NCBI RefSeq assembly: GCF_021117345.1
Contig: NZ_CP088261.1
Location: forward strand, 3,100,001 to 3,164,000
Direction: 5' to 3'
Length of the DNA stretch: 64,000 bases
Source of the DNA: Microbacterium sp. cx-55
GTDB lineage: Bacteria; Actinomycetota; Actinomycetes; Actinomycetales; Microbacteriaceae
Shown here one piece after another: positions 8,039 through 54,738 of this stretch. The translations under genes and the position numbers were made by a program. Each line of letters starts with the position of its first letter. Within the stretch, counting starts at the first letter, position 1. Below the pieces are notes generated by a model. The model had not been told where the DNA came from and ran no database searches. It saw nothing but the letters and a program-made list of their open reading frames with translations.

Positions 8039-8112
8039 GAAGCGAGGAGATGTGCCGAAGCGAGGACGGATGCGGATGCTTCGCTCCTCGCTCGAGCAGA
8101 TCTCCTCGCTTC
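8039..8112. repeat. Dispersed palindrome family A, copy A1
   Basis: Imperfect palindrome of 74 bp. The left arm contains GAAGCGAGGAG and GAAGCGAGGA 18 bp apart with ATGTGCC between; the right arm is the inverted equivalent with GAGCAGATC between two TCCTCGC motifs. The loop is rich in GGATGCGG. It lies between the nitroreductase and the polyketide synthase gene. Nothing else was seen in 7923-8233. Confidence 0.85.
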
Positions 8113-8233
8113 GGCCGCTGCGGCACCGGAGCGAGGCGCGAATCCCGCGACCCGGAGCGGCGACACTCTAGATCGACCGCAGCGGGTGCACCAGTGCGAC
8201 CCGCACACCCGCGATGCGTGTTTATGGTGAACC

Positions 8234-9316
8234 ATGAACCCGAGCATCGTGGCGATCGGCACGGCCGTGCCGCCGACCCGCCTCGCCCAGCACGACGTGC
8301 GCGAGGTGTTCGCGACGCAACCCGGAATCGGCCGCCTCACGCAGCGTCTCGTCCACGCCGCGTTCGACGCGTCGGCGATCGAGTACCGCCACACCGTGCT
8401 GTCGGGGCTGCTCGGCGACCCGGGAGACGGGCTTTCCGTCCGCCACGGCGACGTGCTGCTCTCGCCTCCCACGTCCGCGCGCAACGCCGAGTACCGCCGC
8501 CTCGTTCCGGCCCTTTTCGCCGAGGCATCGCGGCAGGCGTTGTCGGATGCGGGACTGGATGCGGCCGCCGTCACCCACGTCATCACGGTCTCGTGCACGG
8601 GCCTGTTCGCCCCCGGGCCCGACATGCGGCTCGTCCGCGATCTCGGGCTGAGCCCGAACGTCGAGCGCTACCACCACGGGTTCGTCGGGTGCGCGGCGGC
8701 GGTGCCCGCTCTTCGCGCCGCGCACCGGATCGCGGTCGCCCAACCCGGGTCGGTCGTGCTCGTCGCGTCCGCCGAACTGTGCTCGCTGCACCTGCGGGCA
8801 TCGTCCGACCCCGAGCAGATCGTCGCCGCGTCGCTGTTCGCCGACGGCGCCGCGGCCGCGATCGTCACGTCCGCACCCTCAACCGGGGTGCGCCTCGAGC
8901 TCGACACCTTCGCCACCGCCCTCACGAGCGACGGAGAGGACGACATGACCTGGACGATCGGTGACGAGGGCTTCGAGATGCGCCTGTCGGCGGAGGTGCC
9001 GCGCATCGTGGGCCGCGAGGTGCGGGCCGCCGCATCCGATCTGCTCGATGTCGACGCGTGGGCGGTGCACCCGGGTGGGCGCAGCGTGCTCGATCGCGTG
9101 GCCGCGGGCCTCGAGCTGACCGACGCGCAGATGGCGCCGTCGCGTGAGGTGCTGCGCGACTACGGCAACATGTCGAGCGCGACGATCCTCTTCATCCTGC
9201 GCCGCCTGCTGCACGACGATTCCCTCGGAGACGCCGATATCGGCGCGCTCGCCTTCGGCCCGGGCCTCACGGTCGAGTCGGCCCGCCTGCACCGGCGCAC
9301 GGCCGCGGGCGCGTGA
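8234..9316 (+). CDS. Type III polyketide synthase
   Basis: 360 residues, typical chalcone-synthase-fold length. The catalytic triad is visible: Cys153 in GFVGCAAAVPALRAA, His279 in WAVHPGG and Asn312 in YGNMSSATI. Such enzymes extend an acyl starter with malonyl-CoA and cyclise the product to alkylresorcinols or pyrones; the starter and product here cannot be read from sequence. It is followed by a methyltransferase (4-bp overlap) and an FAD monooxygenase, a set like the srsABC genes of Streptomyces griseus (established for that system), so a methylated or oxidised phenolic lipid is inferred. Confidence 0.85.
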   Translation: MNPSIVAIGTAVPPTRLAQHDVREVFATQPGIGRLTQRLVHAAFDASAIEYRHTVLSGLLGDPGDGLSVRHGDVLLSPPTSARNAEYRRLVPALFAEASRQALSDAGLDAAAVTHVITVSCTGLFAPGPDMRLVRDLGLSPNVERYHHGFVGCAAAVPALRAAHRIAVAQPGSVVLVASAELCSLHLRASSDPEQIVAASLFADGAAAAIVTSAPSTGVRLELDTFATALTSDGEDDMTWTIGDEGFEMRLSAEVPRIVGREVRAAASDLLDVDAWAVHPGGRSVLDRVAAGLELTDAQMAPSREVLRDYGNMSSATILFILRRLLHDDSLGDADIGALAFGPGLTVESARLHRRTAAGA

Positions 9317-10191
9317 GTAGCGAGCGCGTGCGCGCGACCGACGACAGGCGCGAGTGCGCGCGCGTGCGCGCGACCGACGGCAGACGCGACAGCGACGGCG
9401 AGCGCAAGCGCGAGAGCGGCAACCCGCGCGAGAGCCACGGCGGACGCGAGCCGGGCAAACGCAGCGTGAGCGCCAGGCGCGGCCCGCACCACGTGTCGCT
9501 CCGCGAGCGGGATCGCGCGCTGCAGGAGCTCATGGACGACCCGGACTGCGACCCGCACCGCCTCGCCGCGACCTGGCAGCGCTTCGACGCGGTCAACCGG
9601 CTCATCTCGGGCTGGGACACGATCTATCGCCGCGCTGTCCGCCCGGTCCTCGCGCGCACGGGCGGCTCGGCGCGGGTGCTCGACCTCGGATGCGGCGGCG
9701 GCGATGTTCTCGCTCGGCTCGCGCGGCTCGCGCGCGCCGACGGGCTCACGGCGGAGTGGCTCGGTGTCGACCCGGATGCGCGCGCCCTCCCGATCGCCCG
9801 GCGGCGCGAGGCGCCGGGGGTGACGTTCCGCACCACCGACTCCGCGACCCTTCGCGCGGAAGGCGAACGGTTCGACCTCGTGCTCTCCAACCACGTGCTG
9901 CACCATCTGACGGATGCGGAACTGCACGCTTTCGCCGACGACTCCCTCGCCCTCTCGCGTCAGATCGTGGTGCACGCCGACATCGAACGCAGCCGCACGG
10001 CGTACGCGTTGTACGCGGCCGGGATCACGCCCCTCGCGCCCGGCACGTTCCTTCTCACCGATGGGCTGCGTTCCATCCGTCGCAGCTACCGCGAAGCGGA
10101 GTTGGCGGCCGCGCTGCCGCCGTCCGAGGGCTGGGTCATCCGGCGTCCTGTGCCGTTCCGGCTCGTGGCCGTGGGGCGCGGTCGTGGCTGA
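9313..10191 (+). CDS. SAM-dependent class I methyltransferase
   Basis: 292 residues from the GTG that overlaps the polyketide synthase stop. The first 55 residues are a strange Arg/Asp/Gly-rich low-complexity leader (RVRATDDRRECARVRATDGR). In-frame GTG codons at 9466 and 9493 would remove it, and the folded part begins near HVSLRERDRALQELMDD. The SAM-binding motif I is VLDLGCGGGDVLARL, with an acidic motif II (LGVDPDA) and FDLVLSNHVLHHL. It probably methylates the polyketide product. The stop overlaps the next GTG start by 8 bp. Confidence 0.8.
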   Translation: MSSERVRATDDRRECARVRATDGRRDSDGERKRESGNPRESHGGREPGKRSVSARRGPHHVSLRERDRALQELMDDPDCDPHRLAATWQRFDAVNRLISGWDTIYRRAVRPVLARTGGSARVLDLGCGGGDVLARLARLARADGLTAEWLGVDPDARALPIARRREAPGVTFRTTDSATLRAEGERFDLVLSNHVLHHLTDAELHAFADDSLALSRQIVVHADIERSRTAYALYAAGITPLAPGTFLLTDGLRSIRRSYREAELAAALPPSEGWVIRRPVPFRLVAVGRGRG

Positions 10192-11311
10192 CGTCGTCGT
10201 CGTGGGAGCCGGCCCCGTGGGGTTGCTGCTCGCGAGCGAACTGCACCGCCGGGGCATCGGTACGCGGCTGCTCGAACGGCGCCCGTCGGCGGGCGGCGGA
10301 TCCCGCGCGATCGGCGTGCACTCCCCCGTGCTGGCCGCGCTCGAACCGTCCGGCGTCACCGAGCGACTCCTCGCGTCGGCGCTCCGGGTCCACCGCGGCG
10401 AGGCGCGGTCGGGCGCGCAGCTTCTGGGAACCGTGCACTTCGACCGGCTCCGCGCACGGTTCCCGTTCGTCGCCACGCTGCCGCAGTCGGCGACCGAAGC
10501 AGCCCTCGCACACGGCGGACCGCCGGTTCAGCGCGGCGCCGAGGTCACCCGCATCCGCCGCGTCGGTGACCGGATGCGGATCAGCCTCCGAGGCGGCGAC
10601 GATCTCGACGCCGGCATCGTCGTGGTGGCGACCGGTGCGGGCGGGCGGGCGGTCGCGTACCGGCCGGGCGCCGTGCGCGTGCACTCCTACGCCGACCGCT
10701 ATCTGATGAGCGACACAGATGTGGGCTACGACGACCCGACCGCGATCGTGCGGCTCGGGCGCCGCGGAGTGCTCGAGTCGTTTCCGCTCCCCGGTGAGCG
10801 TCGCCGCTACGTCGCGTGGGACGACGACCCGGACGACGACCGGCCAGACGCGCGGCTGGAGCGGTTCCGCAGGGCGCTCGCGGCGCACGGGGAGGGCGCG
10901 GCGGCGGAGCGGGTGGCGGCCGCATCCGGATTCCGCGTGCGTCGTGTCGTCGTGCCCCGGATGCGGCGCGGCACCCTGTTCGTCATCGGCGACGGAGCGC
11001 ACGAGGTGAGCCCGATCGGGGGTCAGGGCATGAACCTCGGCCTGCTCGATGCCGCCGGTCTTGCGCCTCTGCTGGCGGAGTGGGTGCGGCGCGGTGAAGA
11101 ACCCGCCGCCGCTCTTGCGCGCTGGGAGCGCCGCCGGCTGACGTCCGCCCGCACGGCGGCAGCGCTCGCGTCGGCCAACACCGCGCTCGGGCGCCCCCTC
11201 GGCCCCCGTGGCGATGCCCTCCGTCGCCGCGCGCTGCGCGCTGTGCTCTCCGGCCCGTCCGGAATGCTCTTCGCCCACGCCTACGCGATGGGCCTCGACC
11301 GCGACGCGTAG
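10184..11311 (+). CDS. FAD-dependent monooxygenase of the polyketide cluster
   Basis: 375 residues. An N-terminal VVVVGAGPVGLLLASELHRRG binds the FAD ADP moiety. Residues toward the C-terminus, LFVIGDGAHEVSPIGGQGMNLGLLDA, are the GD and flavin-ribitol-binding motif of group A aromatic hydroxylases. It is expected to hydroxylate the resorcinol or pyrone ring with NAD(P)H and O2. GTG at 10184 overlaps the methyltransferase by 8 bp, supporting one operon of three genes. Confidence 0.8.
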   Translation: MADVVVVGAGPVGLLLASELHRRGIGTRLLERRPSAGGGSRAIGVHSPVLAALEPSGVTERLLASALRVHRGEARSGAQLLGTVHFDRLRARFPFVATLPQSATEAALAHGGPPVQRGAEVTRIRRVGDRMRISLRGGDDLDAGIVVVATGAGGRAVAYRPGAVRVHSYADRYLMSDTDVGYDDPTAIVRLGRRGVLESFPLPGERRRYVAWDDDPDDDRPDARLERFRRALAAHGEGAAAERVAAASGFRVRRVVVPRMRRGTLFVIGDGAHEVSPIGGQGMNLGLLDAAGLAPLLAEWVRRGEEPAAALARWERRRLTSARTAAALASANTALGRPLGPRGDALRRRALRAVLSGPSGMLFAHAYAMGLDRDA

Positions 11312-11358
11312 TCCGCGCCCTCGCTCCCCCGCGCGAGCCTCGCGCCGCCGCTCTTCCC

Positions 11359-11427
11359 GCGAGACTGCCGTTTCGGCACGAGACGTCGGTCCGCGACCAA
11401 CGTCTCGCCGCGCAACTGCAGTTTCGC
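11359..11427. repeat. Dispersed palindrome family C, copy C1
   Basis: Imperfect palindrome of 69 bp between convergent genes. The arms contain GAGAC-type motifs spaced 19 bp with TGCCGTTTCGGCAC between; the right arm is CGTCTCGCC...AACTGCAGTTTCGC. The same sequence recurs at 29355-29423 with the same length. Confidence 0.8.
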
Positions 11428-11459
11428 GATCAGCGCGCCCCGAGGGACGGCGGGCGGGG

Positions 11460-12314
11460 TCAGGCGGCGAGGGCGCCACCGGTCGCGACGAGTTGTGCGG
11501 CGAGCAGCAGCGCGGCCAGCATCACCAGGCGGAAGACGATCCGGCCGGGCGCTCCGCGGAGCGCAACGACCGCGGACAGCACCGCGACGACCGACACCGC
11601 CACGAAGAACACCCACGAGAGCCCGGACACGTCGCCGACGCGCCCGCCCACCGGGCCGAGCAGCACGGCGAGCGCCCCGGCGATGACGCCCGCGGCCGCG
11701 GCCACCGCAGACGCCGGGCCGCCGATGCGATGCGGCAGACCGCGGATGCCGGTAGCCCGGTCATCGTCGAGATCCGGCAGCACGTTCGACAGATGCACGG
11801 CCGCCCCGAGCGCGGCGCCGGCGACGAACGCCCACGGCGCGGCGAAGCGGGGTTCGGCGGCCGACAGGGTCGCGAGCGACGGGAACAGGCCGAAGGTCAC
11901 GAGGAACGGCACGACCGAGAACGCCGTGGCCTTCAGCGGTGCGTTGTACGCCCACCCGGAGATCACGGCGACGGCGTGTGCCACCAGCATCCCGACCCCG
12001 AGCGGCGCCGACAGCACGAGAGCGACGATCGCGCAGCCGACCGCCGCGATCCAGGCGGTGCGGATGCGGACGTCCCCGCGCGCGAGAGGCTTGTCGGTGC
12101 GCCCCACGGCGCGGTCGCGGGCGGCGTCGATCGCGTCGTTCGAGATGCCGATCGAGAGCTGGCCGGCGAAGACCGCGGCCGCGAGCAGCAGCATCCGCCA
12201 CAGCTCGAGACCGGCGGCCACCCCGAGTGCGAGCGCCAGCGCCGTGACGACGCACGTCGGGCCGGGATGCGAGGACTGCCACAGTCCGCGGATGACGACG
12301 GCGGGCGAGGACAT
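11460..12314 (-). CDS. UbiA-family prenyltransferase
   Basis: 284 residues with eight to nine hydrophobic helices. Both Mg2+/diphosphate-binding aspartate motifs are present: NDAIDAARD at 59-67 and DLDDD at 181-185. UbiA enzymes attach an isoprenoid to an aromatic or lipid acceptor in the membrane. It is convergent with the type III polyketide synthase genes, so prenylation of that product is a reasonable inference. A menaquinone or carotenoid role cannot be excluded, but no partner genes for those pathways are nearby. Confidence 0.82.
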   Translation of the reverse strand: MSSPAVVIRGLWQSSHPGPTCVVTALALALGVAAGLELWRMLLLAAAVFAGQLSIGISNDAIDAARDRAVGRTDKPLARGDVRIRTAWIAAVGCAIVALVLSAPLGVGMLVAHAVAVISGWAYNAPLKATAFSVVPFLVTFGLFPSLATLSAAEPRFAAPWAFVAGAALGAAVHLSNVLPDLDDDRATGIRGLPHRIGGPASAVAAAAGVIAGALAVLLGPVGGRVGDVSGLSWVFFVAVSVVAVLSAVVALRGAPGRIVFRLVMLAALLLAAQLVATGGALAA

Positions 12315-12436
12315 GCTCCGACGTTACGGGGTGCGCGGACCCGCCGGCGCCCCTTGCGCGCCCACGGGGCACCGCTCGCACCCGGCACCCCGCGACGCAC
12401 GCTCACACCCGGCGAACGCAACCGCCCGCCGCTCCG

Positions 12437-14632
<2,196 letters not shown>

Positions 14633-14661
14633 CTGTTCTCCTGAAATCTGTGCGACTCAAA

Positions 14662-14682
14662 CTTGAGTCGATGTAGCTCAAG
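14662..14682 (-). promoter_or_regulatory. HAIR element (HspR operator) of clpB
   Basis: CTTGAGT, 7 nt, GCTCAAG: one mismatch to the established HAIR consensus CTTGAGT-N7-ACTCAAG. An additional ACTCAA half-site abuts it at 14655-14660. It lies 30 bp upstream of the clpB start, so repression by HspR (gene at 25.2 kb) is expected. Confidence 0.85.
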
Positions 14683-14748
14683 TTTATCGCATCGCCCGCA
14701 CGAACGCGAGGGCAGAAGCCGCATCCGACGTCGGACTCGTGAGAGGCG

Positions 14749-15771: not shown

Positions 15772-15882
15772 GTCTACTCCGATCGAAGAGGGGCGGATGC
15801 GGACGCGCTTTGGCAGAAAGAACGCGACCGCTGTCCATCCTGCCACTCGTGGCGAGATTCCACCATCCGTAGGTTTACTGCC

Positions 15883-29319: not shown

Positions 29320-29354
29320 TTTCAGCATGCGGCTCCTATGGCGAGTTCTCGCCC

Positions 29355-29423
29355 GCGAGACTGCAGTTTCGGCACGAGACGTTGGTCGGGAGCCGACGTC
29401 TCGCCGCTCCGTTGCCGTCTCGC
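29355..29423. repeat. Dispersed palindrome family C, copy C2
   Basis: 69-bp imperfect palindrome: GCGAGACTGCAGTTTCGGCA then GAGACGTTGGTC on the left, and the inverted CGTCTCGCC...GTCTCGC on the right. It sits in the divergent gap between dnaK and the MFS gene, upstream of the HAIR sites. Confidence 0.8.
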
Positions 29424-29537
29424 GGGCAGGGCGCGGGGGCGAGCGGATGCGGGCGGCGCAGGTAGCCTGAGCGCACGCCGCGAGGATGCGGCGCGGCGGC
29501 ACTCCCGGAAACCGCCCGTTCACCGAAGGGCCATACC

Positions 29538-31066: not shown

Positions 31067-31070
31067 ACCG

Positions 31071-31137
31071 CGAGACGGGATCTTCGCGCCGAGACAGTGG
31101 GGTAACCCCTAAGTCTCGGCGCGAAGATCCCGTCTCG
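31071..31137. repeat. Dispersed palindrome family B, copy B1 (perfect)
   Basis: 67 bp with perfect 25-bp arms (31071-31095 and 31113-31137), each containing CGAGAC twice 19 bp apart around GGGATCTTCGCGC. The 17-nt loop itself contains the palindrome GGGGTAACCCC. It lies between convergent genes and could also act as a bidirectional terminator. Confidence 0.92.
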
Positions 31138-31159
31138 GTGGTCGATCGGGGCGCGCGGG

Positions 31160-31795: not shown

Positions 31796-31900
31796 ACTGC
31801 GGTCAACGACTCCCGCCGCGCAGAATTCCCGCCCGGCAGGCCGCCTCATCCCCCTCCGACCTCATGAGCACGATCGTGGCGCCGGGTCCCCATCCGACCA

Positions 31901-31967
31901 CGAGACGGGATCAGGGCGCCGAGACCGTGGGGTTACCCCCAAGTCTCGGCGCGAAGATCCCGTCTCG
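31901..31967. repeat. Dispersed palindrome family B, copy B2
   Basis: 67 bp, same right arm as B1; the left arm differs by a few central bases (CAGGG replacing CTTCG). The loop is CGTGGGGTTACCCCCAA, again a palindrome. It lies between two minus-strand genes. Confidence 0.9.
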
Positions 31968-32002
31968 CGGGTGGAGGTCGGCCGGGCTCGCCCCCGCCGG
32001 GG

Positions 32003-32491: not shown

Positions 32492-32634
32492 GTCGGCGGG
32501 CTACTGCAAGCCACAACCTCGGCGGGCTACTTCAAGCCACAACCTCGGCGGGCTACTTCAAGCCACAACCTCGGCGGGCTACTGCGGCCAGCTACTGCGT
32601 CCGCGACGTCGGCAGGCTACTGCGGCCAGCCGTC
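32492..32634. repeat. 26-bp tandem repeat derived from the end of the MarR gene
   Basis: Three exact-length units of 26 bp (32492-32517, 32518-32543, 32544-32569) with core CTCGGCGGGCTACTTCAAGC, then two diverged units ending in GGCTACTGCGGCCAGC. The last unit is the stop codon and final codons of the regulator at 32617. Consensus differs by G/T at one position. There are no unique spacers, so this is not CRISPR. Confidence 0.85.
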
Positions 32635-34992: not shown

Positions 34993-35163
34993 AGTGAAGC
35001 GAACCCCTGGGTGGGCCCCGCCGCCCGAGGCTCCGCGCGCCGCGCAGCGGCGGGTGGTGTGGCGGCGGGACGATTCCCGTCAGCCCCTCCACGCCAAGAA
35101 CGGCTCGGCTCGTCCGGGCCGTTCTTCGCGTTTCGGCAGAGTGACGCGAACCCTGGGTGGGCC
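34993..35163. repeat. Partial tandem duplication of the tRNA-Gly 3' end and trailer
   Basis: The last 20 bases of the tRNA (GATTCCCGTCAGCCCCTCCA, 34925-34944) recur exactly at 35072-35091, preceded by GCGGGA resembling the T stem. The trailer AGTGAAGCGAACCCCTGGGT (34993 onward) recurs at 35140 with two changes. Both offsets are 147 bp, so a single tandem unit was duplicated, and the rest of the second tRNA was lost or replaced. Confidence 0.8.
35096..35126 (+). terminator. Terminator after the truncated tRNA copy
   Basis: 13-bp stem AAGAACGGCTCGG / CCGGGCCGTTCTT (one G-T pair) with a 5-nt loop. A good intrinsic terminator positioned like a tRNA trailer hairpin. Confidence 0.75.
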
Positions 35164-35235
35164 GCATCCGCAGATCGCGCCGCATCCGCAGATCGCGTCG
35201 CATCCGCAGATCGCGTCGCATCCGCAGATCGCGCC
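35164..35235. repeat. 18-bp tandem repeat, four copies
   Basis: Four head-to-tail copies of GCATCCGCAGATCGCGTC with C/T variation at the last two positions. They lie between the tRNA trailer and palindrome A2. Confidence 0.9.
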
Positions 35236-35247
35236 GCTGGTCAGCCC

Positions 35248-35321
35248 GAAGCGAGGAGATCTGCCGAGCAGAGGACGGATGGTGCGAATCCCGTCCTCGC
35301 TCGGGCAGATCTCCTCGCTCC
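35248..35321. repeat. Dispersed palindrome family A, copy A2
   Basis: GAAGCGAGGAGATCTGCCGA ... CTCGGGCAGATCTCCTCGCT, 74 bp. Inner motifs are GAGGA and TCCTCGC. Together with the tRNA duplication and the 18-bp array it fills the 34945-35404 gap; no gene is seen there. Confidence 0.88.
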
Positions 35322-35404
35322 GGGCCGCGCTGAGCCGCCCACACCGCGCCCCCGGACCCGCGCACACGACCCCACCCACACCGCCGCATCCGTAAGCTGC
35401 TCCC

Positions 35405-41164: not shown

Positions 41165-41300
41165 CGGTGCCTCTTCCTGGGTGGGGAGCTCTGCGAACTC
41201 TAGCGGTCGTGGCGGTCCTGCTCGCGCGTCGCCCCGTTCGCTCTGGCGCCAGCCCCGTGCCCGCGCGCGCCACTTTCCTGCTCACGCGCCTCAGATCTGT

Positions 41301-41475
41301 AGCGCGCGAGCGGGAAAGTGGCGCGCGGCGGGAAGATTGCGCGCGGGCGGGGAAGGTCGCGCGCGGGCGGGGAAGGTCGCGCGCGGGCGGCAAGGTAGCG
41401 CGCGGAAGTGGCGCGCAGCGAGAAGGTGGCGCGCGAGAGGGAAGGTCGCGCGCGAGCGGGAAAGTGGCGCGGGGC
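41301..41475. repeat. About 20-bp tandem array, eight to nine units
   Basis: Units vary around GCGCGCGGGCGGGGAAGGTC and shorter GCGCGCGAGCGGGAAAGTG forms (18-20 bp). It occupies most of the gap 41165-41509 between the divergently oriented regions of the aldo/keto reductase start and the ribokinase end; no gene or clear promoter is seen there. Confidence 0.85.
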
Positions 41476-42346: not shown

Positions 42347-42449
42347 AGCTCCATTTGACCACGCCACCGCGCGCGGTGCCCTTGGCCCCAGCCCTCAGCC
42401 CCCGCCCCGGCCCGGCCCCGGCCCCGGCCCCCGCCCCGGCCCCGGCCCT

Positions 42450-42520
42450 AGCGAGGAGATCTGCCCAAGCGAGGAGCGATTCCCGGCATCCGAACCTCGC
42501 TCGGGCAGATCGCCTCGCTT
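42450..42520. repeat. Dispersed palindrome family A, copy A3
   Basis: AGCGAGGAGATCTGCCCAAG ... CTCGGGCAGATCGCCTCGCT, 71 bp, preceded by a CCCCGGCCCC-type short tandem run. In the divergent gap between ribokinase and nucleoside hydrolase. Confidence 0.88.
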
Positions 42521-42620
42521 CCGGCCGGAAACCCAGCCGTCACGAGGCCTCCCGCACCGCACGTGGCGTGTGCACGGGCCCCAGCCCTCAGCCCCGACCC
42601 CAGCCCTCAGCCCCGACCCT

Positions 42621-42691
42621 AGCGAGGAGATCTGCCCAGGCGAGGAGCAATTCGCGGCATCCGAACCTCGCTTCGGCAGATCACCTCGCTT
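42621..42691. repeat. Dispersed palindrome family A, copy A4
   Basis: AGCGAGGAGATCTGCCCAGG ... CTTCGGCAGATCACCTCGCT, 71 bp, 171 bp after A3 and sharing its flanks (CCAGCCCTCAGCCCC before it and GGCATCCGAACC in the loop), so A3 and A4 arose by local duplication. The remainder of 42347-42876 holds only a candidate -10 TATAAC (42804-42809) for the hydrolase gene. Confidence 0.88.
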
Positions 42692-42876
42692 CGGGCCGGA
42701 ATGCAGCCCGCCGCAACACCTGTCTCACGAGCAGCCGCACCCGCACCGCATCACCCACACCCGCACGAGCACACCGCGTCACGTGCGCGACACACGATCG
42801 GGCTATAACCGAGAGAGTGCCCGCATCCGGGCGCGCGGACGACGGAGTCCGATCCGCCCGACTCCAGGAGCACGAC

Positions 42877-43833: not shown

Positions 43834-43893
43834 CCCTCGGCCCGAGGGTCGCGCTGATGCCCGCGCCCGCGGCCCGCGCCCGGCTTCCATCCG

Positions 43894-43960
43894 CGAGACG
43901 GGATCTTCGCGCCGAGACAGGGGGGTTACCCCACGGTTTCGGCGCGAAGAACCCGTCTCG
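43894..43960. repeat. Dispersed palindrome family B, copy B3
   Basis: 67 bp. The left arm is identical to B1; the right arm has two changes (GTTTCGG and GAACCCG). The loop retains GGGGGTTACCCC. It lies between convergent genes. Confidence 0.9.
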
Positions 43961-43987
43961 CGGTCAAGGGGCGGGTGCGCAGCGCGG

Positions 43988-46588: not shown

Positions 46589-46637
46589 GCGGCTGCGGGC
46601 TCGCGGACACTCAGCGACACCCGAAGAAACTCAGAGG

Positions 46638-46665: not shown

Positions 46666-46671
46666 GGCGGC

Positions 46672-47328
46672 ATGAGCGAGCCGATCTCCTTCTCCGCAGC
46701 CCTCCGCGAGCGTTCCAGCGGCGCCCATTCCGGCAGCGAGGGCGCGGGATTCATGTCCGACCTCATCAAGGGCGAGGGCACCCGAGACGACTACATCAAT
46801 CTCGTGGCGCAGCACTGGTTTATCTATGAGGCGCTCGAAGGAGCGGCCGATCGGATGCGGCGCGACCCCGTGGCATCCGTCTTCATCTCCGAAAAGCTCA
46901 CCCGGCTGCCCGCTCTCGAGGCCGACCTCGAGTTCCTCGTCGGCCCGGACTGGCGCGAGCGCATCGTCCCCCTCCCGACCACGCAGCGCTACGTCGACCG
47001 CATCCGCCAGGTCGGCGCGACCTGGGCCGGCGGCTTCGTCGCGCACCACTACACGCGTTACCTGGGCGACCTGTCCGGCGGGCTCTTCATCGGCAAGCTC
47101 ATGCAGCGCCGCTTCGGATTCGACACGAACGGCATCGGCTTCTACATCTTCGGCGACATCGCCGACCCGAAGGCGTTCAAGGACGTCTACCGCCTCCAGC
47201 TCGACGCCGTGCCGTGGGATGACGACGAGCGCGAGCGCGTGATCGACGAGGTCCTGCAGGCATACCGGTTCAACACCGAACTCTTCGAGGACCTCGCGCG
47301 CGCGAAGGCCGAGTCCGCCGTCGCCTGA
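46672..47328 (+). CDS. hmuO: Biliverdin-producing heme oxygenase
   Basis: 218 residues. Proximal heme ligand His19 in SSGAHSGSEGAGFM; distal helix RYLGDLSGGLFIGKLM with the conserved GDLSGG; FYIFGDIADPKAFKDVYRLQLDAV. It degrades heme to biliverdin, CO and iron. Preceded by an iron-box-like promoter and by a DUF2470 gene; iron-starvation induction is the expected control. Confidence 0.92.
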   Translation: MSEPISFSAALRERSSGAHSGSEGAGFMSDLIKGEGTRDDYINLVAQHWFIYEALEGAADRMRRDPVASVFISEKLTRLPALEADLEFLVGPDWRERIVPLPTTQRYVDRIRQVGATWAGGFVAHHYTRYLGDLSGGLFIGKLMQRRFGFDTNGIGFYIFGDIADPKAFKDVYRLQLDAVPWDDDERERVIDEVLQAYRFNTELFEDLARAKAESAVA

Positions 47329-47542
47329 CCCGCCCGGGCGGGTGCTCCGCCTCCGGTCGCGGGCGTACCCGGTCGCTCCGCATCCGCATCCAGTCGCGGG
47401 CGTACCCGCATCCGGTCGCCGTCTCGGCGTCCGGTCGCCGTAGCCGTCCGGCAGCCCTTGCGTCACCGCATCCGGTCAGGCCGCTCCGCATCCGGTCCCC
47501 GTGGCCCGTCCGGCAGCCCTCACGCCACCGCTTCCGGTCACC

Positions 47543-47614
47543 AGATTCGGAGATGTCACCAGATTCGGATGCTGCGCCCCGATCCGGTCCGAATCTCGCC
47601 GCATCTCCGAATCT
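47543..47614. repeat. Palindrome E (single copy)
   Basis: 72 bp: AGATTCGGAGATG and AGATTCGGA 18 bp apart on the left, with the inverted GAATCT...GCATCTCCGAATCT on the right. Same layout as families A-C with different sequence. The rest of 47329-47753 consists of GCATCCGGTCGC-type and CCGCACCGCAGCACCCGCC-type short repeats, with no gene seen. Confidence 0.75.
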
Positions 47615-47753
47615 CGCGACACCGCAGCACCGCCGCCAGCACCCACACCGCCGCGCGCCCGCGCCGCGCGCCCGCACCGCAGCACCCGCCACGCCGCACC
47701 GCGCGCCCGCACCGCAGCACCCGCCACGCCGCCCCCGCAGCACCCGCCCGGCG

Positions 47754-49112
47754 TCAGGAGGTGGCGGCGCGCGCGCTCCGCATGAACCGCTCCACGTCGG
47801 GGTCGACCCGCACGTCCGAGGGGCGGAGCGGTCGCGATAGATACAGCCCGTCCAGCGATGTCAGCCGTGACAGCGCGACGTACGTCTGCCCGGGCGCGAA
47901 GGCGCCGGCCCCCATGTCGACGATGGCGCGCTCGTAGGTCTTGCCCTGCGACTTGTGGATCGTGACGGCCCAGGCGAGCCGCAGCGGGAACTGCGTGAAT
48001 TCGGCCACGATGTCGCGGCTCAGCGACCGGGTTGCCGGGTTGTAGGCGTAGCGGAAACGTTCCCAGACGGCCGGTTCGACGTCGTGATCGCGGCCGTCGA
48101 CCTCGACCCGCACCGACCCTCCGCGCATCTTCACGACCGTGCCGATCGTCCCGTTGACCCATCGCGGGCCCTCGCCGTGCGGCTGGATGTCGTTGCGGAG
48201 GAACATCACCTGCGCCCCCGGCTTCAGCTGCAGTTCCGCATCCGCGGGATAGTTCGCCTCGCCGCGACCGAAGTCGCCGCTGATCTCCGCGCGTGCCGTC
48301 TGCGCCTTACCTGCGAGCGCTTCGAGGTGGCGCCGGTTGATCGCGTTCACCCGGTCGTTGCGGGTGGCGAGCGTGATCATGGGGGGTTCGTCGGCGCTGG
48401 GCTCGGGGGGCCGACGTGCGCCGGTGTCATTCAGGATCTTCGCCATGTCGGCCGTGACCTGGCCGTGCCGCACGGCGTTCAGCAGAGCTTTGAAACCCGG
48501 ATCGGCCTGGCGGTGGATGTCGCGGAGCTCACGCACGTGCAGCTCGGCACCGAACCGGCCGAGGTCGACCAGACCGTCGTCGGATGGCTCACCCGCCCAG
48601 ACGTGCGCGTCGAAGAACCAGAACGACCGGTAGTGGTCGTTGACGTACCGCAGCTCGTCACCGCGCGGCGGCACGGGTGCCAGCTGGTACGGGTCGCCGA
48701 ACATGATCAGCTGCACGCCGCCGAACGGCTCGGCGCGGCGGCGACGCGCCTGGCGGAGCGAGCGGTCGATGCCGTCCATCAGGTCGGCGTTGACCATCGA
48801 TATCTCATCGATCACGAGGGTGTCGATCGAGTTCAGGATCTTGCGGGTCGCGTCGGACTGATCGAGCTCGGTGTTCGCGATGAGGCCGATGGGCAGCTTG
48901 AACAGCGAGTGGATCGTCTGGCCCTCGACGTTCAGCGCGGCGACGCCGGTGGGCGCGCAGACGGCGATCGTCTTCGCGGTGTTCCACGCGAGGTGCTGCA
49001 AGAGCGTGGATTTTCCGGTGCCGGCGCGTCCCGTCACGAACACGTGCTCGCGCGTGTCTTCGATGAGCCGGAACAGCGCCTCCTGCTCGGCAGAGAGCGG
49101 CGGCGTGTTCAT
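47754..49112 (-). CDS. PIF1/RecD-like superfamily 1B helicase
   Basis: 452 residues. Walker A VFVTGRAGTGKSTLLQHLA (28-40), ALNVEGQTIHSLF, Walker B LVIDEISMV, FGDPYQLAPVPP (motif III), and the C-terminal AWAVTIHKSQGKTYERAIVDMGAGAFAPGQTYVALSRL motifs V-VI. A 5'-3' DNA helicase of the PIF1 group; role in replication or recombination inferred. ATG 49112 is chosen; an ATG three codons upstream is also possible and neither has an ideal ribosome site. Confidence 0.87.
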   Translation of the reverse strand: MNTPPLSAEQEALFRLIEDTREHVFVTGRAGTGKSTLLQHLAWNTAKTIAVCAPTGVAALNVEGQTIHSLFKLPIGLIANTELDQSDATRKILNSIDTLVIDEISMVNADLMDGIDRSLRQARRRRAEPFGGVQLIMFGDPYQLAPVPPRGDELRYVNDHYRSFWFFDAHVWAGEPSDDGLVDLGRFGAELHVRELRDIHRQADPGFKALLNAVRHGQVTADMAKILNDTGARRPPEPSADEPPMITLATRNDRVNAINRRHLEALAGKAQTARAEISGDFGRGEANYPADAELQLKPGAQVMFLRNDIQPHGEGPRWVNGTIGTVVKMRGGSVRVEVDGRDHDVEPAVWERFRYAYNPATRSLSRDIVAEFTQFPLRLAWAVTIHKSQGKTYERAIVDMGAGAFAPGQTYVALSRLTSLDGLYLSRPLRPSDVRVDPDVERFMRSARAATS

Positions 49113-49243
49113 CCCTCCCATGGTAGGCGGGCGGATGCGCAGAATCGGGCCGTCCACACCCGCGCGTCCGCCGTCCACAGCACACATTGCGCCCCGTGGC
49201 GACTCCCCACGTTCTCGCGGGGAGGGTTTCCTAGACTGACCGC

Positions 49244-50311
49244 GTGAGCAATGCGACGACCGGGGGGCGGATGCGGAGCGCCCGGGGTCGGACGTTCGAC
49301 CTCGGCATCCTCGCGCTCATCGGCGTTCTGCTGTTCGGCGCGCTCGCAGCGGGCACCGCCGCGCTCTACCGCGAGTTCTACAGTCCGTCCGCCTTCGTCC
49401 TCCGCTACCTGTCGATGCTGGAGTCCGGTCGCGCCGCCGATGCGCTCGCGATGCCGGGCGTCACGCTCGACGGCCGGCAGCTGACCAACGCGCGGCTGCC
49501 GCAGTCCGCATCCGATGCCCTGCTGCGCAGCGCCGCGCTCGGCGACCTCGATGACGCAGAGATCACCGGCGAGGTGCAGGATGGCGACACGACGATCGTC
49601 AGCGCCCGGTACGAAGCCGGCGGGCACCGCGCGACCACCTCGTTCCGGATCGCGCGCAACGGCACCATCGGCCTCGCCCCGTCCTGGCGATTCGCGCAGA
49701 GCCCGCTCGCGGTCATGAAGGTGTCGGTCGCCGGTTCGATGACGTTCGAGGTGAACTCCTTCTCGCTCGACAAGCGCCAGGTGTCGCCGGAGGGGGCCGA
49801 CGCTGACCCGCTCGCCCCCGTGTCGATGCTGGTGTTCTCGCCCGGCCTGTACTCGATCTCGGTCGACACCCCGATCGCGAAGACGCCGGGGATGGCCGTG
49901 CTCGCCGACGCGCCGATGGTGAACGTGCCCGTGACCCTGCAGGCCGAGCCCACACAGAAGTTCATCGACGTCGTGCAGCAGCGCGTCGAGGAGTTCCTCA
50001 CCAACTGCACCTCCCAGCAGGTGCTGCAGCCGACCGGATGCCCATTCGGCTTCGTGGTCCGCAACCGCGTCGAGCAGTTGCCAAAGTGGACGATCACGGA
50101 ACAGCCCGAGATCAGCGTGGTCGCCGACGGTGCCGGATGGCGCATCCCCGACACGGCAGCGACCGCCCACATCGATCTCACGGTGCGGTCGCTGTTCGAC
50201 GGCGCGTTGTACCCCGTGGCCGAGGACGTGCCGTTCGTCGTCAACGGCACGATCTCCGTGCTGCCCGACGGCACCGCGTCGATTCGGCTCGGCGGTTCCG
50301 ACCTCGACTGA
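49244..50311 (+). CDS. Membrane-anchored extracellular protein, unknown
   Basis: 355 residues from GTG 49244. A short Arg-rich cytosolic segment, one membrane helix (LGILALIGVLLFGALAAGTAALY, 20-42), then an extracytoplasmic beta-rich domain containing one Cys pair (NCTSQQVLQPTGCPFGFVV). No recognised family. The small repeated beta modules (VNVPVTLQAEP; VNGTISVLPDG) suggest an envelope role. It faces the helicase gene across 130 bp. Confidence 0.75.
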   Translation: MSNATTGGRMRSARGRTFDLGILALIGVLLFGALAAGTAALYREFYSPSAFVLRYLSMLESGRAADALAMPGVTLDGRQLTNARLPQSASDALLRSAALGDLDDAEITGEVQDGDTTIVSARYEAGGHRATTSFRIARNGTIGLAPSWRFAQSPLAVMKVSVAGSMTFEVNSFSLDKRQVSPEGADADPLAPVSMLVFSPGLYSISVDTPIAKTPGMAVLADAPMVNVPVTLQAEPTQKFIDVVQQRVEEFLTNCTSQQVLQPTGCPFGFVVRNRVEQLPKWTITEQPEISVVADGAGWRIPDTAATAHIDLTVRSLFDGALYPVAEDVPFVVNGTISVLPDGTASIRLGGSDLD

Positions 50312-50391
50312 AGGCCGCCCGGCGAGGCTGAGCGCCCGGCGAGGCTCGGGGCCGCCCCCCGGCCCCAGCGCGCGTCAGCGCCCGGCAAAGC

Positions 50392-52428
50392 TCACCGAGC
50401 TGCGCGGGAGTCCTTCTCGGCGAGCGCCGCGAGCCGGGCGTTGTACTCGTGCAGCTCCGCATCACCGGAGCGATCGGCCTGACGGTCGCTGCTGCGCTGC
50501 AGCCGGTCGTCGCTGCGGCTCCACTGGATCGCCACCGTGATGCCGATGATGAGGGCCGGGATCTCGCCGATCGACCAGGCCGCGCCGCCGCCGATGTACT
50601 GGTCCTCCAGCGGCGTCGGCCCCCACGTGCGCCCCATCGACCCGAACCATTCCGCCGCAAACAGGCCGGTCTGCATCATGATCGCGATGCCGAAGAAGGC
50701 ATGGATGGCGATCACCATCGCCAGCGTCACCAGGCGGAACGGGTACGGGAGCCGGTAGGGCACCGGATCGATCCCGATCAGAGAGAGGACAAACAGGTAC
50801 CCCGTGATGAGGAAGTGGACGACCATCCACTCGTGCCCGAGGTGGTCGTACAGCGACCAGCGGAACAGGTCGGTGTAGTAGAAGATCCAGAGCGAGGCGA
50901 CGAAGTTCGCGGCCGCGAAGAGCGGATGCGTCACGACCTTCGACAGCGGCGAGTGCACGGCCCACAGGATCCACTCGCGTCCGCCGCGGGTGCCGTCATC
51001 ACGCTTGCGGATGGCGCGGAGTGCGAGGGTCACGGGCGCACCGGGCACCAGCAGCACCGGGATCGCCATCGTGAGCGCCATGTGGCCACCCATGTGCACG
51101 CTGAACAGGTAGTCCTGGTAGACGTTGATCGGTCCGCACGTCACCCACAGCAGCAGCAGCATCCCGAGCACCCAGAGGATGGTGCGGTAGATGGGCCAGC
51201 GATCGCCGCGGCGGTGCAGCCGCCACACTCCGGCGAGGTAGAAGAACAGCCCGAACCCGGCGGCGAACGCCCACAGCAGGTCGATGTTCCACGACGTGAA
51301 CCATTGGCCGATACCGAGCTCCGGGGGAACGGTCGCGTCCGTCAAGAACTGCGCCGGCGTCTGGGCGATCGGCGGAGTCTGGTCGGTCGGCGGGGCCGTT
51401 CGCGCGAGCGCCGCAGCCGCCCCGCTCGCGATGCCCATCAGCGCGAGTTCGATGCCGATCAGCATCCAGAAGCTCCGGGATGCCGCATCCGCCGTCAATC
51501 GTCCGATCAGGCGCAGGCGATACCAGGCGGCGAGGACGCCCATCGCGACCAGGGCGACGACCTTGACGATCAGGATCGCTCCGTACGGCGAGAACAGCGC
51601 CGGCAGCGACCCGAGGCTGACCGTTGCGCGCACGGTTCCCGAGATCGCGACGACGATGAACGCCACCAGCGCGATGCTCGAGTAACGACGCAGCACTCCG
51701 GTCAGCTGGGTGCTCCCCATGACCGGACGGATGAGCACGAGCAGGAGCAGCCCGCCCAGCCACACGGCCGCGGCGATGATGTGCAGCACCAGCGAGAGCG
51801 TCGCGATGTTGTGGTTCGCGAGTTCGCCGGAGTGCCCCTGGGTGCCCATCGGCACGAGTGTCGCCGTGGCGAGCAGCGCGACGATGAGGGTCGGCGTCCA
51901 CGAGCGCACCGCGAAGGTCAGCACCGTCAGGACGGCCCCGGCGATGGTCGTGATGAGCCAGGTGCGGCCGAGTTCCAGGTCGACGAGGAATCGACCGAGC
52001 TGCTGCCCGAACACCGCGTCGGCGCTGGGAGCGGCATTGAAGACATTGACGAAGGTGAGAAAGCCCGTCGCCGCGGCCGCGACCGTGAACACGGCGGCGG
52101 CAACGGATGCGGTATCGAGCGCGATATCGAACGCGCGCTCCTCGGGCTTCAGCGCGAACAGCGCGAGAACGAGCGAGCCGACCAACCCGGCCGCCGAGAG
52201 GTTGACGACGAGGGTGACGATGGGGAGTCCCCATCGCACCACGGGACCCGCGTCGGCGATCGCGAGCGGCGCAGCGCCCCCGCCGTAGAGGAGCGCGGCG
52301 ACCAGAGCGAGAATCGCCGTCACGAAGAGGATCGCCGGTCCCGCGAACCGCAGAACCGTGGGCGATCCCGGGCGGTTCGCGCCTCCGCGCGCGGCATCGA
52401 CGCCGCGGGGAGGGAGCGTCGTGGTCAC
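50392..52428 (-). CDS. CopD-CtaG fusion: copper/cytochrome oxidase assembly membrane protein
   Basis: 678 residues, about fourteen or more helices. The N-terminal half has the CopD-type copper-resistance domain (LADLELGRTWLITTIAGAVLTVL ... HIIAAAVWLGGLLLLVLIRPVMG). The C-terminal half is caa3_CtaG (LLWVTCGPINVYQDYLFSVHMGGHMALTMAIPVLLVPGAPVTLALRA, HAFFGIAIM). Transfers copper to cytochrome c oxidase. This fusion is common in actinobacteria. Ends in a short Arg/Ala-rich tail. Confidence 0.88.
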   Translation of the reverse strand: MTTTLPPRGVDAARGGANRPGSPTVLRFAGPAILFVTAILALVAALLYGGGAAPLAIADAGPVVRWGLPIVTLVVNLSAAGLVGSLVLALFALKPEERAFDIALDTASVAAAVFTVAAAATGFLTFVNVFNAAPSADAVFGQQLGRFLVDLELGRTWLITTIAGAVLTVLTFAVRSWTPTLIVALLATATLVPMGTQGHSGELANHNIATLSLVLHIIAAAVWLGGLLLLVLIRPVMGSTQLTGVLRRYSSIALVAFIVVAISGTVRATVSLGSLPALFSPYGAILIVKVVALVAMGVLAAWYRLRLIGRLTADAASRSFWMLIGIELALMGIASGAAAALARTAPPTDQTPPIAQTPAQFLTDATVPPELGIGQWFTSWNIDLLWAFAAGFGLFFYLAGVWRLHRRGDRWPIYRTILWVLGMLLLLWVTCGPINVYQDYLFSVHMGGHMALTMAIPVLLVPGAPVTLALRAIRKRDDGTRGGREWILWAVHSPLSKVVTHPLFAAANFVASLWIFYYTDLFRWSLYDHLGHEWMVVHFLITGYLFVLSLIGIDPVPYRLPYPFRLVTLAMVIAIHAFFGIAIMMQTGLFAAEWFGSMGRTWGPTPLEDQYIGGGAAWSIGEIPALIIGITVAIQWSRSDDRLQRSSDRQADRSGDAELHEYNARLAALAEKDSRAAR

Positions 52429-52451
52429 CGCTTAAGCCTAGGCGCGAACGA

Positions 52452-52483
52452 CGAAGGAGGACGCCGAGCGGCGTCCTCCTTCG
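52452..52483 (-). terminator. Terminator of the HU gene
   Basis: 14-bp perfect stem CGAAGGAGGACGCC / GGCGTCCTCCTTCG with a GAGC loop, 16 bp after the HU stop on the minus strand and before the CopD-CtaG start. Confidence 0.88.
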
Positions 52484-52498
52484 CGGGTCTTCCGTCGA

Positions 52499-52786
52499 TT
52501 ACTTGACGGCTGCCTTCAGCTTCGAACCTGCGGTGACCTTGACGCGCTTGCCCGCGGGGATCTGGATCTCGGCGCCGGTCTGGGGGTTGCGGCCGGTGCG
52601 AGCAGAGGTCTCGACCTGCTCGAACGCGATCCAGCCCGGGATGGAGACCTTCGAGCCCTTGGCGACGGCCTCGGACACGGTGGAGAAGAGGGAGTCGAGC
52701 ACGCTCGAGACGGCGGACTGGCTCTGTCCGGTTGCGCTGGCAATGCTCGCGACGAGCTCGGTCTTGGTGATGGACTTGTCGGCCAT
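52499..52786 (-). CDS. HU-family DNA-binding protein
   Basis: 95 residues from ATG 52786, with GGAGG 8 nt upstream. Typical HU: DKSITKTELVASIASATGQSQSAVSSVLDSLFSTVSEAVAKGSKVSIPGWIAFEQVETSARTGRNPQTG, with the DNA-clamping arm GRNPQTGAEIQIPAGK (Pro intercalator). It lacks the long Lys/Ala C-terminal tail of mycobacterial HupB. It bends and compacts DNA. A -10-like TATATT lies at 52879-52874 on the minus strand. Confidence 0.93.
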   Translation of the reverse strand: MADKSITKTELVASIASATGQSQSAVSSVLDSLFSTVSEAVAKGSKVSIPGWIAFEQVETSARTGRNPQTGAEIQIPAGKRVKVTAGSKLKAAVK

Positions 52787-53128
52787 GTGGTTGTCCTCCA
52801 AGCGGCGAGATTCGCCGCTGCTTGACTTCGACCCGGGGGCTTGGCCCTCGGTTGGTCGGATCGACCGTGCTCGAATATACCCACGTTCCCCGACATTCCG
52901 CGGATTTACGGGGTTTTACGACGCGAAAAGGCGGCGTGTCCGGTTACGCCGCGGGCGTAGCGGGCGGATGAGGCCGTTTTCACGCATCCGCAGCGGTCTT
53001 CGTGGGGTTTTTCGCGGGTTTCTGCGGGAGGGGTGGGTCGAGGGGCGGGGGGCCGGGCGGGAGCCTGGTCGAGGGCCGGGTGGGGGGCCCGATCACGTCC
53101 CGGCCCGACCCGGCCCGGCCCGGCCCGT

Positions 53129-53198
53129 AGCGAGGAGATCTGCCGGAGCGAGGACCGAATCGCCCGCACCCGCCCTCGCTTCGGCAGATCACCTCGCT
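53129..53198. repeat. Dispersed palindrome family A, copy A5
   Basis: AGCGAGGAGATCTGCCGGAG ... CTTCGGCAGATCACCTCGCT, 70 bp, beside a CCCGGCCCGG tandem run. Between divergent HU and DUF559 genes. Confidence 0.86.
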
Positions 53199-53248
53199 CG
53201 GGCCGGCGCCGCCAGCCTCCGCGGCCGCGCCGATCCGGGCGAAGAGCC

Positions 53249-53360
53249 CGAGCGATGCCGAGCCATGCCGAGCCGATCCGCGCGATGCCGAGCCATGCCG
53301 AGCCATGCCGAGCGAAGCCGAGCGAAGCCGAGCCGATCCGCGCGATGCCGAGCGATGAGC
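53249..53360. repeat. 10-bp tandem repeat around CATGCCGAGC
   Basis: About eleven degenerate units of 10 bp (GATGCCGAGC, CATGCCGAGC, GAAGCCGAGC, GATCCGCGCG), including one larger internal duplication. With A5 and G-rich sequence it fills 52787-53496; no gene is seen there. Confidence 0.8.
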
Positions 53361-53496
53361 CCGAGGGCGGAGTACTCCGGCGTCCGAGTCCTGTCAGCGC
53401 GCCACCGTTCCTCCCCAGGTCGGTGTGCAGCGCGCATCGTCCACGGATGGGAAGAATCGGATGCGGTCGCGACCCTGCGGCCGCCAGGCTCGCGGC

Positions 53497-54339
53497 ATGA
53501 GAGCTACCGCCTTCCGTGCCGTCGACGCCGTGATGGCCGCCGGCGGAGTTGCGCGCAGTGCGACCCTGATGCGCGCCGGGGTGTCGAAGCACGCGCTCGC
53601 TGAGGCCGTCGGCGCCGGTGCACTGATCCGCATCCGGCGCCGCTGGGTGGCGATCCCCGACGCCGACCCGTTTCTCATCAGCGCCGCCCGGGAGAGGGTG
53701 ATTCTGTCGTGCATAACGCGGGCGCAGCGGCTGCGTCTGTGGGTGCTCGAAGACGAGCGTCCGCACGTCGCCGCGCCTCCGCACGCGGGAATGGTGACGA
53801 CCCGCGCCGCCGTCGTGCACCGGCATGCGCCGCTGGTGCCGCGCCATCCGGATTCCCTCGAGGACTCGATCGAGAACACGCTGAGTCTCGTCGCCGTCTG
53901 CCAGCCGTTCGAGCGGGCGCTCGCTATCTGGGACTCCGCCTTCCGCCAGGGCATCGCTGACCCGCACGCGATGTCGGGCTACGATCTGGGCCTCAAGGCA
54001 CGCGAGGTTCTCGAAAGCGCCAGCGCCTACCGCGATTCGGGGCTCGAGACGATCGTCTACGTACGGCTGCGCTTTCTTCGGATGCCGATCGTCTCGCAGG
54101 TGTGGATCGCCGGCCATCGCGTGGATTTCCTCATCGGCGAGCGCCTCATCCTGCAGATCGACGGCGGACACCACGTCGGCGCGCAGCGAGCCGCTGACAT
54201 CGCGCACGATGCGCAGTTGATGCTGCTCGGCTACCACGTCATCCGGGTCACCTACGCCCAGGTGATGGAGGGCTGGGCGACCGTGCTCGACCTCATCCTT
54301 CGCGCGATCGGACAGGGCCTGCACCTCGCCCGCCGCTGA
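53497..54339 (+). CDS. DUF559 / VSR-fold protein with N-terminal winged helix
   Basis: 280 residues from ATG 53497. The N-terminal 60 residues resemble the AbiEi-like winged helix (GGVARSATLMRAGVSKHALAEAVGAGALIRIRRRWVAIP). The C-terminal 110 residues are the DUF559 endonuclease-like fold (VWIAGHRVDFLIGERLILQIDGGHHVGAQRAADIAHDAQLMLLGYHVIRVTYAQVM). The usual acidic residue before the DG motif is Gln (LQIDG), so catalysis is uncertain. Widespread, unassigned actinobacterial family. Stand-alone. Confidence 0.82.
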   Translation: MRATAFRAVDAVMAAGGVARSATLMRAGVSKHALAEAVGAGALIRIRRRWVAIPDADPFLISAARERVILSCITRAQRLRLWVLEDERPHVAAPPHAGMVTTRAAVVHRHAPLVPRHPDSLEDSIENTLSLVAVCQPFERALAIWDSAFRQGIADPHAMSGYDLGLKAREVLESASAYRDSGLETIVYVRLRFLRMPIVSQVWIAGHRVDFLIGERLILQIDGGHHVGAQRAADIAHDAQLMLLGYHVIRVTYAQVMEGWATVLDLILRAIGQGLHLARR

Positions 54340-54467
54340 CGCCCGGAGACCTGCCCCCGCACCGCCCGCCGTGCGCCTGAGGGAGAGCTGCCCGATCGCC
54401 CGCGCGTTGCAAGGAGATGTGCCCGATAGCCCACCCGAAGCGAGGTGGCTGGCGCGAACGCCCGGCG

Positions 54468-54541
54468 GAAGCGAGGAGATTTGCCCTAGCGAGGACCGAA
54501 ACACCCGCATCCGCCCTCGCTTCGGCAGATCACCTCGCTTC
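54468..54541. repeat. Dispersed palindrome family A, copy A6
   Basis: GAAGCGAGGAGATTTGCCCT ... CTTCGGCAGATCACCTCGCT, 74 bp; part of a longer duplicated block with A7 (offset 199 bp, sharing the following GGGCCGCGGATGGGAGCGAT). Confidence 0.88.
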
Positions 54542-54666
54542 GGGCCGCGGATGGGAGCGATCACGCCCGGATGCAGCCTCGCCCGGACCACCTCAGTCCT
54601 GAAACAACCCCGGGCATCTGTCGGAACACTCGACCAGAGCGAGGCGAATTACCCGAACGCCCCGCC

Positions 54667-54738
54667 GAAGCGAGGAGATCTGCCCTAGCGAGGACCGAAT
54701 CACCCGCATCCGCCCTCGCTTCGGCAGATCACCTCGCC
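54667..54738. repeat. Dispersed palindrome family A, copy A7
   Basis: GAAGCGAGGAGATCTGCCCT ... CTTCGGCAGATCACCTCGCC, 72 bp. Repeats and the hairpin at 54871-54906 are all that is seen in the convergent gap 54340-54918. Confidence 0.88.

Follow-up and report, generated by a model that had tools for sequence, protein, structure and literature searches.

What are the palindromes that recur along a 64,000-nucleotide stretch of the Microbacterium sp. cx-55 chromosome, different in their letters and alike in their architecture? The stretch, hereafter the window, spans positions 3,100,001 to 3,164,000 (G000:C1:3100001-3164000) of a genome that consists of a single contig of 3,271,299 bp. A sequence-only reading had described in it seven palindromes of a family A, three of B, two of C and one of E, each arm repeating a short motif at an almost constant distance. 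We found that they belong to a set of about 100 short inverted-repeat elements that lie between the genes of cx-55, two-fold symmetric and of one fixed length per family, present in tens of copies and written in genome-specific dialects at positions that are partly inherited. The best explanation we can offer, tentatively and at somewhat less than an even chance, is that they are non-autonomous intergenic hairpins resembling REPINs (hairpin-forming doublets of repetitive extragenic palindromes, REPs), served by a putative enzyme that copies or overwrites them.

We scanned the window for the layout alone, ignoring letters and asking for 30-nt arms that form at least 21 pairs and each contain a direct repeat at a distance of 17-20 nt. 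This gave 12 matches, and likewise 12 when only the intergenic pieces were scanned. Dinucleotide shuffles of these pieces yielded a mean of 0.1 matches and a maximum of 1 (n = 40), and ten shuffles of the whole window yielded one in total; shuffled intergenic DNA does not give equal numbers. The scan overlooks two of the 14 known elements, those at 35244 and 43891. Reversed-motif control patterns for A and B had no match in the examined stretches of cx-55 and of its nearest relative found (G175, second only to cx-55 itself among 366 genus genomes in its match to one window region), where the true patterns matched 81 and 53 times, respectively. All 13 palindromes described earlier are present, if the two C copies are, as seems probable from their B layout and different arm sequence, those at 11357-11429 and 29353-29425. 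Their direct repeats are indeed evenly spaced, at 18 nt in A and E and 19 nt in B and C. The size of 67-75 bp given for the whole element has to be corrected, as it is the span between the outer motifs; the conserved elements measure 80 nt (A), 73 nt (B and C) and 84 nt (E).

Further copies exist across the genome. DNA searches located A in at least 25 places (among the best 40 of 72 candidates), along with one 18-nt tandem array, B in at least 40 (best 40 of 55) and E in at least 12 (best 40 of 43). A covariance model trained on 44 B-type elements, with the best 150 candidates scored per genome, returned 132 matches over both strands for the B superfamily, C included, which corresponds to about 66 places in cx-55; the same model gave 124 matches, or about 62 places, in G175. 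The cx-55 copies comprise a tight dialect, B1 (mean identity 65.6/73), and looser copies that are mostly of a second dialect, B2, which is the C of the sequence-only reading. The 17 non-B1 copies examined share on average 57.2/73 among themselves, two of them (210156 and 2911332) being nearer to B1. The sequence-only reading saw no arm sequence common to the families beyond the CGAGAC core of B and C. Not all of them are unrelated: B and C are two dialects of one superfamily, and A, B and E appear alignable by eye on an unscored GAGR...GAT core. Lengths are rigid, with hardly an indel: B measures 73 nt in 38 of 40 cx-55 copies and 74 nt in the other two, and the G175 B-type element 73 nt in 40 of 40 (range searched 68-78 nt), while all 25 A copies have 80 nt and all 12 E copies 84 nt (range searched 70-95 nt). 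In E, the loop letters vary freely while the loop length stays constant.

We further compared these elements with those of G175, whose genes are about 80% identical to those of cx-55. G175 carries at least 40 B-type copies (DNA search, best 40 of 65 candidates) in a dialect that keeps the four CGAGAC motifs and the 73-nt length and differs family-wide in much of the remaining sequence. In the gap between the genes for an MFS protein and an F420-type oxidoreductase, for example, cx-55 has a B1 element and G175 an element with CGAGAC at the same positions and a different interior; other congeners carry further versions of B. Of 79 collinear intervals between orthologous genes, 24 contain at least one element: cx-55 and G175 both have B in 11 of them, cx-55 alone has an element in 6 and G175 alone in 6, and one has A in cx-55 and B in G175. 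One of the 11 shared intervals (cx-55 1010631) holds a 74-nt copy missed by the pattern and added by hand, and the proportion of 11 in 24 is indicative only, since the compared stretches were chosen around elements. The pair cx-55 788711 and G175 2474875 was rejected as a shared gap, the two elements lying on opposite sides of one gene. Ten same-place pairs involving B1 were identical at a mean of 44.5/73 positions against 43.9/73 for all B1 cross-pairs, and four same-place pairs of other cx-55 copies at 48.75 against 48.5. Elements at the same place resemble each other no more than random cross-pairs do: the sequence is that of the genome, with almost no locus memory, at positions that are partly inherited.

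At the DNA level, B matched in 7 of 149 genus genomes and A in 18 of 366, cx-55 included in both counts. The B model reached much further: at E up to 0.01 it matched 71 of 99 genus genomes, cx-55 included, and left 28 without a match; E-values are rough, and the best one fell below 0.001 in 63 of the 99. B is a real hairpin element of fixed length in most sampled genomes of the genus, with genome-specific dialects, and the constant geometry with changing sequence noted in the window applies not only from family to family but also from species to species. Two A-like elements of G175 (L360:3819-3892 and L367:7282-7352) have AGCGGAGGAGAT where cx-55 has AGCGAGGAGAT, which suggests that family A has dialects too.

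Is the element read as a duplex or as a folded strand? At a purely symmetric protein site, each arm of an element would copy the consensus independently of the other. We measured arm pairing and compared it with arms shuffled among elements. For 34 B1 elements of cx-55 oriented by their centre, pairing was 0.858 against 0.882 after shuffling, with 0 of 3000 shuffles as low, and the deficit was located at columns 17-18, 29 and 31. Without orientation, within-genome shuffles gave a probability of so low a value of 0/2000 in cx-55, 0.008 in G175 and 0.0065 in G093. When 135 elements from six genomes were pooled (cx-55 in two sets), arm pairing lay below all 5000 shuffles, the under-paired columns being 14-18, 29, 31 and 32; pairing is weak in an internal zone within columns 14-20 of cx-55, G175, G093, G078 and G050, and to a lesser degree in G099. 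In four B sets (up to 15 elements each), whole elements form strong folds, with mean z between -7.5 and -10.9, and single arms do not (mean z -0.4 to +0.6); hand-made consensus arms gave z +1.4 for A and -0.1 for E. Since the arms avoid pairing at some columns in cx-55, G175 and G093, to which anything that reads duplex DNA should be blind, a hairpin-type unit is favored. The under-pairing hints at selection on the folded strand in some dialects, either for a function or against a perfect hairpin. Covariation among 28 single elements from other genomes leans towards pairing; a model or query that was itself paired had been used to find or choose these elements by similarity, so we set them aside, and the claim of under-pairing rests on the within-genome shuffles.

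The sequence-only reading had proposed protein sites, a cruciform or a mobile unit as the source of the constant geometry, and the data lean to a hairpin-type non-autonomous unit, although under-pairing is not found in all genomes tested. In the mechanism that we propose, the recognized form would be the folded single strand, either a single-stranded DNA hairpin or a cruciform. A putative enzyme, other than the Y1 transposases known as REP-associated tyrosine transposases (RAYTs), would spread the current master sequence by copying it to new gaps behind genes, and would also overwrite resident copies; together, the two activities could produce one or two dialects per genome without locus memory. 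The CGAGAC-type motif, found twice per arm about 19 nt apart, may be the contact of this enzyme, the internal loop at columns 14-18 may be an unpaired zone that is needed or tolerated, and any service as transcript-end hairpin may be a side effect. A bolder form of the proposal, in which a genus-wide, RAYT-free hairpin element of Actinobacteria has its resident copies rewritten in place by a putative machine while inherited loci carry the genome's current dialect, strikes us as rather doubtful. If true, these ideas would put a REPIN-like system outside the RAYT world and would clearly exemplify concerted evolution among dispersed bacterial elements of 73 nt. The spread and homogenization of such repeats without the known transposase would become testable, and layout and dialects would offer a handle for finding the enzyme through genes that track the presence of the element (71 against 28 of 99 genomes).

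Several observations weigh against the copying and overwriting scheme. No copying enzyme was found, in a search confined to Y1_Tnp (PF01797): cx-55 and 22 congeners had no match, and the only one among 38 genomes searched was in another family. This extends to the whole genome and genus sample the earlier remark that the window holds no RAYT gene, and we rejected a RAYT as the mobilizer. We likewise rejected a plasmid, phage or viral-contig source of B, as the B1 consensus had no match in plasmid and phage records (E up to 0.001) and the exact B motif pattern none in viral contigs. Mobility is something that we infer, and the sharing of positions could include repeated insertion at favored gaps. 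The orthologous gaps are too diverged to align, and a precise insertion boundary, empty site or target duplication could not be read from them. Under-pairing is not universal either, the unoriented probability being 0.054 in G050, 0.18 in G078 and 0.71 in G099. These three genomes have centre columns 29 and 31 mostly paired, and G099 includes one perfectly palindromic copy. The central effect in G175 consists of a fixed directional mismatch, and once the elements are oriented, their total no longer falls below chance.

The main rival, which we consider unlikely, is that the elements are bidirectional transcript-end hairpins, whose RNA fold would end or protect the mRNAs of convergent and tandem genes and which selection would maintain, their letters being shared because a protein or RNase reads them. 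Placement speaks for it. With genes called by a simple codon-bias caller made for this analysis, the strong B hairpins lie at a median of 28 nt from the nearest stop codon in cx-55 and 24 nt in G175 (40 copies each), in 20 convergent, 15 tandem, 3 divergent and 2 unresolved contexts in the former and 21, 16, 2 and 1 in the latter. Placement is looser in A (12 convergent, 8 tandem, 4 divergent, 1 unresolved; n = 25) and E (5 convergent, 2 tandem, 3 divergent, 2 overlapping a called open reading frame; n = 12), and the copies in divergent gaps (B 3/40, A 4/25, E 3/12) do not suit a transcript end. The elements had been described as always intergenic, which is true of 13 of 13 in the window and is not quite borne out for E, given the two copies just mentioned, and as often lying between convergent genes, which applies to 6 of 13 in the window and to a fair share genome-wide, with the reservation that 7 of the 12 convergent A copies belong to three tandem clusters. 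The flank base table of B1 and G175 copies lacks the T-run that an intrinsic terminator would have directly after the hairpin; the G175 flanks have T before and A after it, the wrong way round for a terminator, and a T-run stands on one side in 3 of 16 non-B1 cx-55 copies with flanks inspected. A link between the directional centre and transcription was rejected, tandem copies with the same and opposite direction numbering 11:3 in cx-55 (p = 0.057) and 7:9 in G175. Pairing of the flanks as a stem extension was not above shuffles in cx-55 (P = 0.93 over the first 6 positions, 0.83 over the first 12, 0.55 over positions 7-18 and 0.21 for the longest run) and at most weak in G175 (0.98, 0.79, 0.04 and 0.06 for the same measures). 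Transcript-end hairpins would also leave unexplained the family-wide dialects without locus memory.

We also weighed three further readings. It is quite improbable, to our mind, that the elements are four double-stranded sites, rigidly spaced, for one class of nucleoid or chromosome-organizing protein. Length and spacing are rigid even where loop letters are free, as in E, the consensus is symmetric and degenerate, the flanks follow a consensus yet mostly do not pair with each other, and in A and E the complementarity of the arms equals that of shuffled arms or falls slightly short of it (P(low) = 0.055 and 0.066, respectively); a duplex-reading protein should nevertheless not see the avoidance of pairing in the B1 elements of cx-55. 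Recombination sites like attC, delimiting movable single-gene cassettes, are very improbable. In attC sites, structure is kept more than sequence, the folded strand has unpaired positions, sets are species-specific and stand behind genes, and the ends carry RYYYAAC ... GTTRRRY. Element pairs often enclose one to four genes here, with element-gene-element-gene-element arrays both in G175 and, in cx-55, around the MFS and F420-type genes. In one such G175 run (L376:13324-14723), the cx-55 counterpart lacks the GNAT gene and all three elements, the remaining genes being close together, and a subtilase-like gene stands between two G175 elements where cx-55 has one. Pairs under 2 kb number 6 against 0.95 expected in G175 (40 elements, P = 0.0006) and 6 against 1.9 in cx-55 (57 elements, P = 0.009, or 0.07 against a local-density null). 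Gene content differs in 8 of 24 intervals with elements against 5 of 55 without (Fisher p = 0.017), an association biased by the choice of stretches around elements. Ten element-flanked G175 genes were scanned, and the eight with Pfam matches are of ordinary accessory kinds (GNAT twice, LysE, TetR, CtaG, DUF2243, transglutaminase-like and subtilase-like). Against cassettes, some flanked genes are conserved in both genomes, flanked genes are scattered and occur in both orientations, and the elements, unlike attC sites, are dispersed in both orientations, have fixed lengths of 73, 80 or 84 nt and lack the attC end motifs on inspection of the A1 alignment and flanks. That they are dialect-forming uptake signal sequences, some of them set as inverted pairs where genes end, is scarcely credible. 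PMC3630211 describes DNA uptake sequences (DUS) of Neisseriaceae as genome-wide dialects that differ between species and as inverted pairs at terminators and gene ends, in roughly 900 to 6000 copies per genome. The Microbacterium elements share the species dialects and the inverted arrangement at gene ends and are much longer, with two motifs per arm, and far fewer (about 66 B, at least 25 A and at least 12 E); moreover, the paired A motif matches 35 times, of which 28 are A units of elements or of the tandem array and the other seven look unrelated.

Within the window (positions counted from its first letter, features listed without strand), motif and DNA searches placed family A at 8035..8116, 35244..35323 (with one inner motif mutated), 42444..42525 and its tandem neighbor 42621..42696, 53125..53203 to the left of a DUF559 gene, 54464..54545 to the right of it, and 54664..54744, the tandem neighbor of the latter. 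The DUF559 gene (53530-54339) has a weak AbiEi_4 match, and the matching G175 interval has a B element instead of it. An 18-bp tandem repeat of 4.3 copies (35161-35237) adjoins the second A element on its left. By DNA search and length count, the 73-nt B1 elements lie at 31068..31140, where the orthologous G175 gap holds an element in the G175 dialect, and at 31898..31970 and 43891..43963; a G175 element also stands beside the ortholog of the F420-type gene next to 31898..31970, but the following gene differs. Of the two C (B2) elements, 11357..11429 was obtained by extending each end of a core found by the scan (11360-11426) by 3 nt, by analogy with other B elements, and 29353..29425 (73 nt) was found by covariance model and layout scan; its counterpart interval in G175, upstream of the MFS gene, holds no element. 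The E element, 84 nt with free loop letters and fixed loop length, occupies 47537..47620. A palindrome at 41264..41327 (family D) is a further member of the layout set, with CGCGCC 19 nt apart in the arm and centre CAGATCTG; related copies occur at genome position 3077837 and in the stretch L309. A 19-bp tandem array of about nine units (41302-41471) overlaps one of its arms, as if the arm had been amplified, and the 18-nt array of family A (genome 2220514-2220606) resembles it. The examined stretches of the genome also hold same-layout palindromes with unrelated letters at 172515 and 191537-191857, and three near-tandem palindromes of GATGAGGG type with the same layout form a further family (L103:3538-3858). 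Other repeats in the window are a 160-bp unit in 2.7 tandem copies (6689-7127), each with its own palindrome of CCGAGCGCGCTCCAACTCCTCC type and a 21-bp internal repeat, and a 26-bp tandem repeat, TCGGCGGGCTACTGCAAGCCACAACC, in 3.6 copies (32493-32585). Rfam gave three matches in the window at E up to 1, none at an element.

How do these elements compare with described repeats? By title and abstract, the open literature, which excludes most subscription papers, yielded no report of such repeats in Microbacterium, Microbacteriaceae or Actinobacteria. We do not file them as REPs, because the REP marks that we tested fail: PF01797 is absent from cx-55, no GTAG or CGTC end is conserved in A or E on inspection and B ends in CCGCGAG/CTCGCGG, and the unit is not itself a hairpin, as the single arm does not fold and carries its motif twice as a direct repeat. 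The CGTC-tagged REPs are short palindromic families reported without an associated transposase (PMC3733652), with stems of 8-9 bp and a CGTC end; the Microbacterium elements are likewise short palindromes without a PF01797 match in the genome, with arms of some 30 bp that lack a CGTC end. The same paper places REPs next to the 3' ends of convergent and unidirectional open reading frames, and B is extragenic and near 3' ends, with convergent and tandem contexts exceeding divergent ones. REPINs, as described in PMC3116915, PMC3733652 and PMC3686654, are inverted doublets of about 70-80 nt that form hairpins, lie between genes in tens to hundreds of copies, belong to genome-specific classes and have a spacer that is conserved in length more than in letters. 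The term "orthoswitch" (PMC3686654) denotes different REP classes at syntenic RAYTs, and REPIN clusters with their flanks are described in PMC3116915, which the tandem A clusters, duplicating part of their flanks as well, resemble. These elements of an actinobacterial host differ from REPINs in lacking PF01797 and a terminal GTAG or CGTC, and share with them the inverted doublet folding into one long hairpin, the length-constrained spacer, the tandem clusters with flanks, the 3'-end placement and the genome-specific classes. Altogether, the comparison suggests that they work most like REPINs.

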